Program-made: the position numbers and the translations under genes | Notes under the pieces: model-generated | Seen by the model: only the letters and a program-made list of their open reading frames with translations | Told to the model about the DNA's origin: nothing | Database searches by the model: none | Part shown: in pieces, positions 12,680 to 44,083 of the stretch | Position numbering within the stretch: position 1 is the stretch's first letter | Layout of the letters: each line of letters opens with the position of its first letter | Assembly: GCA_035559815.1 (NCBI GenBank) | Contig: DATMAT010000047.1 | Coordinates: 1-64,000 of the forward strand | DNA length: 64,000 nucleotides | From: Thermodesulfobacteriota bacterium | GTDB taxonomy: Bacteria; Desulfobacterota_D; UBA1144; Nemesobacterales; CSP1-2 | Direction: 5' to 3'

Positions 12680-12856
12680 TACCAATCCTGTTTTTTTCGA
12701 TTCTGTGATAAGAGTGCATGGCGGGCGAAGTCATTATCGCTTATTCCTAGGATAGTTGATAAATAATTAATAGCCCGAATAGATTATGGCGTTGGCAAAA
12801 GTCGGGTTGATTACCTTTACACTTCTTTTGACAATAATTAAAATACATTGAGGCTC

Positions 12857-14461
12857 ATGGACCAGGAGCAACTAAAAAAACTCGATCAATATTATTGCGA
12901 TTTTTTAGTCATAGGAAGCGGGCTGGCTGGACTCTACGCCGCTCTCTATGCTTCTAAGTTTGGCAAAGTAGCTCTGATAACAAAATCTACGGTCGAAGAA
13001 AGCAATTCTTACTGGGCTCAGGGAGGCATCGCCGCCGCCATCGATCCTGAAGACTCACCGCTTTTTCATCTGGAAGATACAATCACCGCTGGCCGAGGGC
13101 TGTGCAACAGAGATGCCGTGGAGATACTGGTACGCGAGGGAAAGGAACGCGTTATGGACTTAATCAGCCTCGGTATGAAATTTGACACCAGTGATAAAGG
13201 CCTGGAGCTGGGATTAGAGGGCGGACATACCAAAAGAAGGGTCCTTCATGCCGGAGGAAGCTCTACTGGAAAAGAAATGGTGCGGTTCCTTACCCATTCG
13301 GTCAAAGCTAGTCCCAATATTTTTCTGTTCGAGAGAATGACCATAGCGGAGCTTATCTCCGACAATGAAAGGTGCTATGGAGCCTTGGCGTTCAAAGATA
13401 ACTCCGACCAACACATTATTTTCGTTTCTAAATCTACCATACTGGCTACCGGTGGAGCCTCTGCGCTTTATGAGAGAACCACGAACCCACCGAGCGCGAT
13501 TGGAGACGGGATTGCCCTTTCCTACAGGGCGGGGGCAGAGATCATGGACATGGAATTTATTCAATTTCACCCAACTGCCTTACACGTCGAGGGCAAAGAA
13601 GGGTTTCTCATAAGTGAGGCAGTAAGGGGTGAAGGGGCTTGCCTTCTCGATCACTCCGGCCATAGATTTATGCCCGATTACCACGAGCTAGCCGAACTCG
13701 CCCCAAGAGACGTGGTGTCCAGGTCTATTTTTGAAGAGATGAGGAAATCGGGGAAAAATTGTGTTTTTCTAGACCTAAGACACCTGGACCCCGGTTTCGT
13801 AAAAAAACGCTTTTCAAACATATATGACGTATGCCTAAAATCAGGCATTGATATAACAAAGGATTTAGTGCCGGTGTCTCCGGCGGCCCACTATACAGTA
13901 GGCGGGGTCAAAACCGGTCTCATGGCTGAGACCAACGTGAAAGGGCTTTTTGCCTGTGGCGAAGTGGCCTGTTCCGGAGTGCACGGCGCCAACAGGCTGG
14001 CTAGCAACTCCCTGCTCGAGTGCATCGTATTTGCCAAAAGAGCGATAGACGGTGCAATTGAAGATAACGAGGGAAATCTAAAATCCTACAAGCTTGGCCT
14101 CATAAACTCCGATTTGATACTACCATCACCCCCTTCCCAAAGAGAAGCCTTTTTGGTGAAAAAGAACAATATCTCCCGATTAATGACCGAGCACGTAGAA
14201 ATAGTTCGTAGCGCCGACGGGCTTGAAAAAGCAGGCGACGAACTGGAAAGAATTTCAGAATCGATAAATGAGCTTTCCGGGCACTATAAATTGAAGATAC
14301 AAAATATGATTGATGTCTCTCTGCTAATAACCAAATCCGCACTAATCCGGAAGGAATCGAGAGGAGCACACATAAGGCAAGATTTTCCCGCGGAAGACCC
14401 CCGATGGAAGGCGCACATTATTTGGAAAAAGGGCCATGAACCGGTAATAATCGCCGTTTAA
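12857..14461 (+). CDS. nadB: L-aspartate oxidase
   Basis: This protein of about 534 residues oxidises L-aspartate to iminoaspartate for de novo NAD synthesis with quinolinate synthase. The FAD-binding motif FLVIGSGLAGLYAALYA is at the N terminus. The fumarate-reductase/succinate-dehydrogenase-like features are SYWAQGGIAAA, HTKRRVLHAGGSSTG, MEFIQFHPTAL and GEVACSGVHGANRLASNSLLE. A TTG at 12848 is in frame, but the ATG at 12857 starts the conserved part; GAGG at 12850-12853 is close to it. nadA and nadC are not nearby. It is divergent from the kinase gene across about 370 bp. Confidence 0.95.
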   Translation: MDQEQLKKLDQYYCDFLVIGSGLAGLYAALYASKFGKVALITKSTVEESNSYWAQGGIAAAIDPEDSPLFHLEDTITAGRGLCNRDAVEILVREGKERVMDLISLGMKFDTSDKGLELGLEGGHTKRRVLHAGGSSTGKEMVRFLTHSVKASPNIFLFERMTIAELISDNERCYGALAFKDNSDQHIIFVSKSTILATGGASALYERTTNPPSAIGDGIALSYRAGAEIMDMEFIQFHPTALHVEGKEGFLISEAVRGEGACLLDHSGHRFMPDYHELAELAPRDVVSRSIFEEMRKSGKNCVFLDLRHLDPGFVKKRFSNIYDVCLKSGIDITKDLVPVSPAAHYTVGGVKTGLMAETNVKGLFACGEVACSGVHGANRLASNSLLECIVFAKRAIDGAIEDNEGNLKSYKLGLINSDLILPSPPSQREAFLVKKNNISRLMTEHVEIVRSADGLEKAGDELERISESINELSGHYKLKIQNMIDVSLLITKSALIRKESRGAHIRQDFPAEDPRWKAHIIWKKGHEPVIIAV

Positions 14462-14715
14462 TGAGAACTGTGAAGTCCATTATCAATATCGATTGAGGAT
14501 TTTACACTACGTCCTACCTGAAACCGGAAAAGCGACTAAACAGAAACGGTGTACCCTAAGTCTTTTTCGCAAAATTAAGGCAAGAAATTTCGAGTCAGCC
14601 ATGTCGGCATAACAACAGTCAAAAACCCATTGCAGCAAATCCATTTTGTCTTACAGTATTTTGTGTATAACAAATTACCACACACAACATATGCATAAAA
14701 ATATTAAAAAAACAC
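14462..14715. other. Intergenic space after nadB
   Basis: This space after nadB is AT-rich toward its right end and carries no supported gene or obvious terminator for nadB. The regulatory signals of the following mini-gene begin at 14716. Confidence 0.4.
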
Positions 14716-14744
14716 TTGACAAAATTTTTAAAACAAATTAAAGT
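14716..14744 (+). promoter_or_regulatory. Promoter of the histone-like mini-gene leader
   Basis: TTGACA at 14716-14721, a 17-nt spacer, then TAAAGT at 14739-14744 (4 of 6 matches to TATAAT). Transcription would begin near 14751, just before the Fur-like palindrome, giving a leader of about 115 nt before the start codon at 14868. Confidence 0.6.
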
Positions 14745-14757
14745 TGTAGAAAAACAT

Positions 14758-14772
14758 TGATAATGATTATTA
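14758..14772. promoter_or_regulatory. Fur-box-like 7-1-7 palindrome
   Basis: TGATAAT-G-ATTATTA is a 7-1-7 inverted repeat with one mismatch, the arrangement described for Fur operators (TGATAAT/ATTATCA). It sits just downstream of the predicted transcription start, where a bound repressor would block the promoter. AT-rich sequence makes chance matches possible. Confidence 0.4.
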
Positions 14773-14795
14773 ACTATCATTTAATAAAAGATTTT

Positions 14796-14835
14796 CCCTC
14801 GTTTTCGGCGACGAAGGCGAGGGTTTTTTGTTTTT
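14796..14835 (+). terminator. Leader terminator/attenuator ahead of the mini-gene
   Basis: CCCTCG at 14796-14801 pairs with CGAGGG at 14818-14823. The inner bases extend the stem to about 12 pairs (including two G-U) around a GCGA tetraloop, and the stem is followed directly by TTTTTT and a second T-run. This is a textbook intrinsic terminator, yet it lies between the promoter and the ribosome-binding site of the next gene. It should release a short RNA of about 80 nt unless read through. Confidence 0.8.
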
Positions 14836-14867
14836 ACATCTTATGGGAAAAGGAGGTGATATAGTAA

Positions 14868-14966
14868 ATGGCTACAAAGAAGAAGGCAGCAGCCAAGAAG
14901 CCGGCCAAAAAGAGCACGGCTAAGAAAGGAGGAGCCAAGAAATCTACTTCCAAGAAGAAAAAGTAG
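14868..14966 (+). CDS. 32-residue Lys/Ala-rich histone-H1-like basic protein
   Basis: An ATG preceded by a perfect AGGAGGTGAT (14851-14860) opens a 32-residue frame beginning MATKKKAAAKKPAKKSTAKK and ending in SKKKK. About half of the residues are lysine and most others are Ala, Ser, Thr, Gly or Pro. This matches the Lys/Ala-rich tails of bacterial histone-H1-like DNA-binding proteins (Hc1/AlgP/BpH1 type), here as a stand-alone peptide. Binding to DNA or RNA is inference. The leader has its own promoter, a Fur-like palindrome and a terminator, and a strong terminator follows, so it is an independent transcription unit. Confidence 0.8.
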   Translation: MATKKKAAAKKPAKKSTAKKGGAKKSTSKKKK

Positions 14967-14996
14967 TTTCCTTTTGCTCCCCCCTATATTGACGAG

Positions 14997-15037
14997 AAAA
15001 AGCCTGCTGTTAACCTTAGTCGGCCAGCAGGCTTTTT
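14997..15037. terminator. Bidirectional intrinsic terminator
   Basis: AAAAAGCCTGCTG (14997-15009) pairs perfectly with CAGCAGGCTTTTT (15025-15037) around a 15-nt loop. The A-run and T-run flank the stem, so it can stop transcripts from the mini-gene and possibly any entering from the right. Confidence 0.9.
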
Positions 15038-15226: not shown

Positions 15227-16543
15227 TTATTGATTCATCAGGTTTAAAAAATCCTTGTTTGATTTTGTCCCTCTCATCTTATCTAGGAGAAACTCCATCG
15301 ATTCCACGGTGCTCATCGGGCTTAGAATCTTGCGAAGCAGCCATACCCTATTTAGAACATCCTCAGAAAGCAGGAGTTCTTCCTTTCTTGTCCCCGAACG
15401 CTGGAGGTCTATCGCCGGGAATATTCTCTTGTCTGCCAGCCTTCTATCAAGATAAGCCTCCATATTTCCCGTCCCCTTAAACTCCTCAAAGATGACCTCG
15501 TCCATCCTGCTGCCTGTATCGATCAAGGCAGTGGCCACTATAGTGAGACTTCCTCCCTCTTCTGTGTTTCTTGCTGCACCGAAGAATCTCTTGGGTCTTT
15601 GTAGAGCATTTGCTTCCATACCTCCTGAAAGAACCCTTCCGCTGGCCGGGGTTACCGTATTGCTTGCTCGCGCTAGCCGGGTAAGACTATCCAGGAGGAT
15701 GACCACGTCCTTTCCGTGTTCCACAAGCCTTTTTGCTTTCTCCAGAACCATGTCTGCTACCTGAATGTGACGCTGGGGTGGTTCATCGAAGGTGGAGCTT
15801 ACCACCTCCCCTTTGACCGACCTCTCCATGTCCGTTACTTCCTCCGGGCGTTCATCGATTAGCAGCACTATCAGCACTATCTCCGGGTGGTTTTTGGTTA
15901 TGGCGTTGGCAATACGCTGGAGAAGAATAGTCTTTCCGGTTCTCGGAGGTGCTACGATAAGCGCCCTTTGTCCCTTTCCTACCGGAATGAAAAGGTCTAA
16001 CACCCTAGTGCAGAACTCGTTGGGGTCGTATTCCAGGTTGATTTTCTCCTCGGGATGGAGTGGGACCAGACTTTCGAAAGGCACCCTTTCCCGGCAGGAT
16101 TCCGGCGTATCGTAGTTAACATGTTCTATCTTGAGTAGAGCCAGATTTTTCTCTCCCTCTCTCGGCAAGCGAACCTGACCGCCTACAATGTCCCCCGTCT
16201 TTAGGTTGAAGGAACGTATCTGCGATTTGGAAACATAGATATCGTCGGGCCCGGGAAGATAGCTATATTTCGGAGACCTTAAAAACCCGTATCCCTCCGA
16301 AAGAATTTCGAGGACACCCTCGGCATAAATCACACCCTCTTTCTCACTTTGAGCCTTTAGAACTGCGTAGATGAGGTCCTGTTTCGACATTCTAGAGGTG
16401 TCTTCGATCTGGAGGTCCCTAGCCATCTTCATGAGCTCGGTAGCCTTTCTTTCTCTCAACTCATTCAAGTTGAGAAATTGAGACTCCGGCTCTGCCGTCA
16501 CTTTGTCATCGGTATTTTGATGTACTTTAGATGCTCTTGCCAT
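15227..16543 (-). CDS. rho: Transcription termination factor Rho
   Basis: This 438-residue protein has the N-terminal helix bundle with [19 protein letters not shown], and the RNA-binding cold-shock-like domain with [23 protein letters not shown]. The RecA-like ATPase has Walker [13 protein letters not shown], Walker [15 protein letters not shown] and the Q-loop/R-loop region [11 protein letters not shown]. Rho is the hexameric RNA helicase that ends transcription at unstructured C-rich RNA. The length is that of a full protein, with a slightly extended N terminus. A promoter at 16659-16688 leaves a leader of about 110 nt, compatible with the leader-based autoregulation known for rho elsewhere. 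Confidence 0.97.
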
Positions 16544-44021: not shown

Positions 44022-44083
44022 CTTTTAAAACCTCCTATGTGGTATTTTTTTATACACGTCATGGACATATATTGCTTATTATT

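Follow-up and report, generated by a model that had tools for sequence, protein, structure and literature searches.

The window, a 64-kb stretch of DNA from genome G000, carries between nadB and rho a small transcription unit in which an intrinsic terminator stands before the gene of a Lys-rich peptide. We established the anatomy of this unit, its conservation in five genomes, and the selection acting on its peptide; judged from the DNA sequence, the unit is real, conserved, and restricted to one family. We propose that it is probably a terminator-gated, i.e., attenuated, transcription unit for a polycationic peptide. Attenuation is very plausible here, whereas the transcription start, the efficiency of termination, any regulation of readthrough, and the function of the peptide are inferred.

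Organization of the unit between nadB and rho

The features of the unit are listed in Table 1, in which the names of neighboring genes were assigned by reading their translations. As originally predicted, a TTGACA/TAAAGT promoter is present at 14716. Its two hexamers (14716-14721 and 14739-14744, 17-bp spacer) carry 10 of 12 consensus bases, the site ranked first among five promoter-like sites in the 2 kb examined, and transcription is predicted to start near 14751. The perfect ribosome-binding site, in the form of an extended Shine-Dalgarno (SD) sequence, and the 32-codon Lys/Ala-rich gene were also recovered, as was the bidirectional terminator that follows them (15002-15032; -14.0 kcal/mol on the plus strand and -17.5 kcal/mol on the minus strand), which is kept in G005, G002, and G006. 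The proposal that the unit is self-contained is supported by its conservation in five genomes.

Table 1. Features of the terminator-before-peptide unit and its neighbors in the window
Feature	Position	Strand	Remarks
nadB	12848-14461	+	Upstream neighbor; name read from translation
Conserved upstream element (TTGGTGTAAATCC ... TTTTGTGTATAANAAATNACCACACACAACAT)	14630-14710	+	~80 bp; 72-80% identity across the family
Promoter, sigma70-type TTGACA-17-TAAAGT	14716-14744	+	86-97% identity in four relatives
A/U-rich 5' leader (predicted)	14751-14795	+	Length constant at 45-46 nt; sequence 47-78% identical
Fur-box-like palindrome TGATAATGATTATTA	14758-14772	+	In the initially transcribed region
Possible upstream ORF, 33 codons, no SD	14763-14864	+	Speculative
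Leader intrinsic terminator: 12-bp stem, GNRA loop GCGA, then TTTTTTGTTTTT	14796-14835	+	
Extended SD AAAAGGAGGTGATA	about 14848-14861	+	AAAGGAGGTGATA invariant in five genomes
32-codon Lys/Ala/Ser/Thr/Gly peptide gene, product MATKKKAAAKKPAKKSTAKKGGAKKSTSKKKK	14868-14966	+	
Bidirectional terminator, common to peptide gene and convergent rho	15002-15037	both	
rho	15227-16543	-	Convergent downstream neighbor in 5/5 genomes with the unit; name read from translation

Conservation and phyletic distribution

When 41 genomes were searched by DNA, the unit was recovered from four relatives of G000 (Candidatus Dadabacteria or relatives under other names), namely, G001, G002, G005, and G006, all in the same family as G000; by DNA match, G005 is the closest of them to G000. 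The search returned a fifth match, in G024, which was 25 bases of A/T-rich sequence. The leader-plus-peptide arrangement put forward in the original prediction thus recurs in four other genomes, and in no relative was the hairpin lost and the peptide kept, both being present in 5/5 genomes. Identity to G000 varies along the unit. It reaches 72 to 80% in the upstream element, 86 to 97% in the promoter, and 88 to 92% from the SD to the start codon, and it is 56 to 69% in the coding region, with large length changes. The hairpin with its U-run (74 to 88%) is better kept than its flanks, since the 5' leader is only 47 to 78% and the spacer 33 to 56% identical.

An RNA model running from the hairpin to the start codon matched, at E values below 1e-13, only the five genomes with the unit among 58 genomes of the phylum (8e-21 to 1e-14), and the next-best match (E value of 2.8e-4) has a terminator without the SD and the peptide. 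Outside the family, no orthologues were detected by searching 41 genomes at the DNA level, by the SD pattern, by the RNA model, or with a profile of the peptide (58 phylum genomes). Weak matches of the peptide search outside the family were other proteins or other frames, a pattern match in G004 was a different gene, and three matches in viral contigs were all different genes.

The gene order is nadB-unit-rho in G000 and sufS-unit-rho in G001 and G002, and sufS also lies upstream in G006, as in G002. In G003 and G004, which belong to the same family, sufS directly adjoins rho and no unit is found beside rho. A rho tree groups G003 and G004 as a clade and leaves the remainder unresolved; the phyletic pattern may reflect one gain or loss. 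These neighborhoods bear on whether the hairpin could simply be the terminator of the co-directional upstream gene, nadB or sufS. No other strong terminator was found on the plus strand between nadB and the peptide gene, and the upstream gene runs in the same direction as the unit in G000, G001, and G002. However, the hairpin lies ~335 nt beyond nadB, its spacing from the promoter is fixed despite the change of upstream gene, and the peptide promoter precedes it, so that peptide transcription would also be blocked. We therefore consider this explanation highly improbable.

A conserved element upstream of the promoter

The block upstream of the promoter, absent from the original prediction, is conserved even in G001 and G002/G006, where sufS replaces nadB. 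At zero mismatches, each of the five unit-bearing genomes contains the core of this block a single time, at this locus. Because the block is conserved as far as G001 and is unique to the locus, it probably contains one or more transcription factor sites for a dedicated activator or repressor. A regulon was sought and rejected, other sites having two or three mismatches and the two examined not being consistent. One two-mismatch copy of the core, at 44035-44057 of the window (minus strand), is probably due to chance; it lies where a carboxymuconolactone-decarboxylase-like gene, preceded by a TetR-like gene, has its ribosome-binding site. The conserved core GTGTATAANNANTNACCACANAC at 14662-14685 contains on its reverse strand TTATACACA, a DnaA-box-like 9-mer, in G000, G002, and G006, but TTATACACC in G005 and G001. 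An origin of replication at the locus was rejected, as the intergenic region holds a single TTATACACA and shows no clear skew change.

The peptide is very probably translated and is highly basic

The peptide comprises 32 residues in G000, 37 in G005, 43 in G001, and 20 in G002 and G006. Lys and Arg make up 40 to 50% of residues across the five peptides, and none of them contains V, I, L, F, W, Y, C, or an internal Met, i.e., there are no hydrophobic residues past Met1. The SD and the ATGGC start are invariant across the five genomes. When codons were aligned by protein, a caveat to be kept in mind for these counts, differences at the three codon positions amounted to 7/2/17 between G000 and G005, 3/4/12 between G000 and G002, 7/6/15 between G000 and G001, and 2/3/9, 9/11/21, and 2/2/11 in the remaining three pairs, so that third positions differ most often in each of the six pairs compared. 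Since the differences concentrate at third positions, the peptide is very probably translated and under selection; purifying selection (again with codons aligned by protein) and conserved start signals are what is expected of a translated gene.

The peptide had been described as histone H1-like. This holds for its composition, which is Lys/Ala-rich without a hydrophobic core in all five peptides, but not for family membership: no match was found in Pfam or PDB, and the only NCBIfam match, Rv3852_fam for the G005 peptide, scored 12.6 bits where the cut-off is 100. The peptide, a polycation, may bind nucleic acid or polyphosphate. A larger H1-like protein was seen in G050, from another family of the same class, where L168:1080-1623 encodes 181 codons with a long Lys/Thr/Ala-rich tail (ATKKAATKKAATKK...).

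The leader terminator and how it may be crossed

The strong intrinsic terminator claimed for the leader is present in the window, with the 12-bp stem and GCGA loop. Its hairpin (14796-14823, perfect stem) has an energy of -20.9 kcal/mol with the tail and a z score of -4.4 relative to shuffled sequences, of which 1/200 matched it in stability. A single rule applied to the 64 kb found 11 terminator-like sites. None is more stable than this one, and no other strong site immediately precedes an SD and a start codon; the second site flagged is weak (-8.2). The loop is GCGA, GTAA, or GCAA, all of the GNRA type, in four of the five genomes; in G001, the stem is intact in a shifted register with a different loop. 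The predicted start lies a constant 45 to 46 nt from the hairpin. The spacer from the U-run to the SD is only ~12 to 19 nt, a distance too short for a second promoter, and so every peptide message would have to cross the terminator.

All five genomes thus have, as an attenuator would, an intrinsic terminator that separates the promoter from the coding region. A competing antiterminator fold was not found when leader-to-arm pairing (-1.1 to -4.8 kcal/mol) was compared with the hairpin (-10.4 to -19.7 kcal/mol), and the leader matched no Rfam family or sensor domain. A match to FsrA (25.9 bits against a gathering score of 80) was below threshold and taken as chance. Every genome allows the 5' arm of the hairpin to be paired with the SD, but 9 to 53% of shuffled arms perform equally well, and an SD switch of this kind was rejected. 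Formal covariation in the stem was not significant with five genomes and four distinct sequences only.

Terminator-gated expression is favored by the position of the hairpin, downstream of the conserved promoter and ahead of the SD; the missing antiterminator, Rfam family, and formal stem covariation count against it. In such a mechanism, RNA polymerase would start near 14751 at the sigma70-type promoter, under the influence of the conserved upstream element, make the 45-nt A/U-rich leader, and then meet the strong intrinsic terminator, where the majority of transcripts would stop as an RNA of ~80 nt. Readthrough, through a condition-dependent trans factor or a leaky terminator, would yield a message exposing the extended SD, from which a very basic, unstructured peptide of 20 to 43 residues could be made at high yield per message. 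Such gating would likely serve to keep a potentially harmful polycation off until nucleic acid or polyphosphate has to be coated. Since the 45-nt leader offers the stem no pairing partner, relief of termination would require a protein, a ribosome, or simple leakage. Cold-shock proteins are known antiterminators, which makes a melter of this type a candidate. The cold-shock gene cspD is among those reported to attenuate a small RNA terminator in the account of PMC9765468.

The original prediction offered either attenuation or a stable short RNA of ~80 nt, and the conservation of the leader terminator in five genomes is consistent with both. That the short RNA acts in trans as the main product, the peptide gene being a leak-through by-product, seems quite improbable to us: promoter and terminator do form a complete short RNA gene with a constant distance from start to hairpin (45 to 46 nt), but SD and coding frame are both kept, and little conservation is seen in the unpaired segment that precedes the hairpin (G000 and G002 share 47% identity there), which argues against a kept seed. 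Alternatively, the hairpin could be a 5' stability or standby element, in effect a leaky terminator whose stem and U-rich tail shield the message from decay and aid 30S loading at the extended SD, with the peptide made constitutively. The conserved SD with a U-rich tract adjoining the stem would fit such an element, as would the failure to find an antiterminator or sensor domain, and a constant leak or 5' stabilizing role would leave the same sequence as regulated readthrough. However, a 12-bp stem with TTTTTT immediately after it (-19.7 kcal/mol) is a classical efficient terminator, and the T-run, unneeded for a mere stabilizer, is kept. We regard this alternative as unlikely, though one to keep in view, and prefer terminator-gated expression.

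A possible upstream ORF

Control by ribosome passage has also to be weighed. The leader contains an ATG at +12 to +14 (17 to 19 nt past the -10 hexamer), absent from the original prediction, which opens a frame that runs through the terminator and stops 3 nt short of the peptide ATG. Translation of this frame through the terminator would block the stem, so that the peptide would be made only when leader translation is efficient. Comparable ATGs open frames extending beyond the U-run in 5/5 genomes, G002/G006 using another reading frame with respect to the hairpin, and the chance of such an open frame is 7 to 12% per genome as estimated with shuffles; these chances do not multiply, because the genomes share ancestry. 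A gene attenuated through an upstream ORF has a precedent in a DUF1127 gene of Sinorhizobium meliloti (PMC12218461). Against this explanation, the ATG has no SD and the codon positions show no bias toward the third (5/8/5). A conserved upstream peptide was rejected on this lack of codon bias. We give this reading little credence. Were it correct, an SD-less AUG ~13 nt from the 5' end, from which a ribosome rides through the terminator and licenses a polylysine-like peptide that coats nucleic acid, could constitute a minimal sensor of translation capacity, an idea we hold to be a long shot.

The Fur-like box is not conserved with the unit

The unit had further been proposed to be under Fur control through a 7-1-7 palindrome at 14758. 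The palindrome is present but not perfect, 6/7 arm positions being symmetric, and TGATAATGATTATTA has one mismatch to the 15-bp consensus used, TGATAATNATTATCA. The box lies within the initially transcribed region, and the genome encodes FUR-family proteins (five PF01475 matches). However, among the four relatives it is kept in G005 only, having been lost from G001, G002, and G006 with everything else retained. Genome-wide, the pattern occurs at 31 sites with up to two mismatches, against 13 for a reversed control. No obvious iron gene was recognized by reading ORFs at 14 other Fur-like sites, comprising twelve with two mismatches and the two remaining ones with one mismatch. The nearest to one was a porin-like gene behind one of the one-mismatch sites, the second of which precedes a gene that could not be tied to iron. 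Fur control of the unit therefore finds no support in this comparison, and repression by Fur is very doubtful. Given the five FUR-family proteins, Fur may nevertheless bind in G000 and G005 alone.

Similar geometry elsewhere

We scanned the contigs of 84,980 genomes for the same geometry (GGTTTTT, a short gap, AAGGAGGTGAT, and ATGGC), with gene names read from frames. The scan returned 45 loci, among them the four unit-bearing relatives, together with T-box trpS-type leaders, rpsU-like genes, and cold-shock genes. Rfam confirmed six of the seven trpS-type loci tested as T-box leaders, and the geometry thus recovers known attenuators.

Several other loci from the scan are recorded here as observations. 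In Planctomycetota/Phycisphaerae, a 26-residue Lys/Ser peptide, MAAKKSKSSKSTKKSAKKSTKKSGRR, lies behind AAAGGAGGTGATACATG (L033:2945-3025, minus strand; L035:4571-4651, plus strand); the two leaders, of ~240 nt, are much alike, are not unusually structured (z = -0.9), and have no Rfam match. Two Chloroflexi MAGs carry rpsU-like genes with a terminator-like hairpin and U-run before the AAAGGAGGTGAT start (L018:424-472 and L024:6331-6379), and no Rfam family matched these two leaders. At three cold-shock-like genes, two from Planctomycetota and one from Ratteibacteria (L010:3109-3164, L049:1527-1563, and L032:74-119), a T-run occurs shortly before an extended SD, with a clear hairpin before it in L032.

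The occurrence of related geometry in other phyla, ahead of rpsU, of cold-shock genes, and of a further tiny Lys-rich peptide, hints that leaders with a terminator before an extended SD are perhaps a recurring way of dosing small nucleic-acid-binding proteins. Annotation and similarity searches tend to miss genes of this size and low sequence complexity, and a compact conserved leader in a little-studied lineage offers a clean test of how bacteria handle polycationic peptides.

Comparison with known systems

Attenuators and H1-like peptides are both known kinds, and their pairing is apparently undescribed: as the original prediction had suspected, we found no report in the open-access literature of an attenuated leader paired with a tiny Lys-rich peptide. 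The geometry itself is known, and the leader appears to belong to no described class among those testable. T-box and similar leader attenuators share with it a promoter, a leader, an intrinsic terminator, and an SD within ~40 nt, but the leader described here is 45 nt long and has no aptamer, competing antiterminator fold, or Rfam match. The S. meliloti DUF1127 gene is likewise small, with premature termination in its leader and an upstream ORF there (PMC12218461). That leader, however, has 279 nt and an upstream ORF with an SD, and its authors infer Rho-dependent termination, the sole intrinsic candidate having failed their test, whereas the present leader has a strong intrinsic terminator and a possible upstream ORF without an SD.

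Bacterial histone H1-like proteins (chlamydial Hc1/Hc2 and AlgP) resemble the peptides in Lys-rich composition and in length variation, which for Hc2 is reported as 165 to 237 residues in PMC2848022; in contrast, the peptides here have 20 to 43 residues, no second domain, and no HMM match near the cut-off. In Flavobacteriales, the extended SD of rpsU is read with bS21 and a sequestered anti-SD, according to the account in PMC9976891; although the peptide gene is not rpsU, it too carries an extended SD and encodes a small, basic product.
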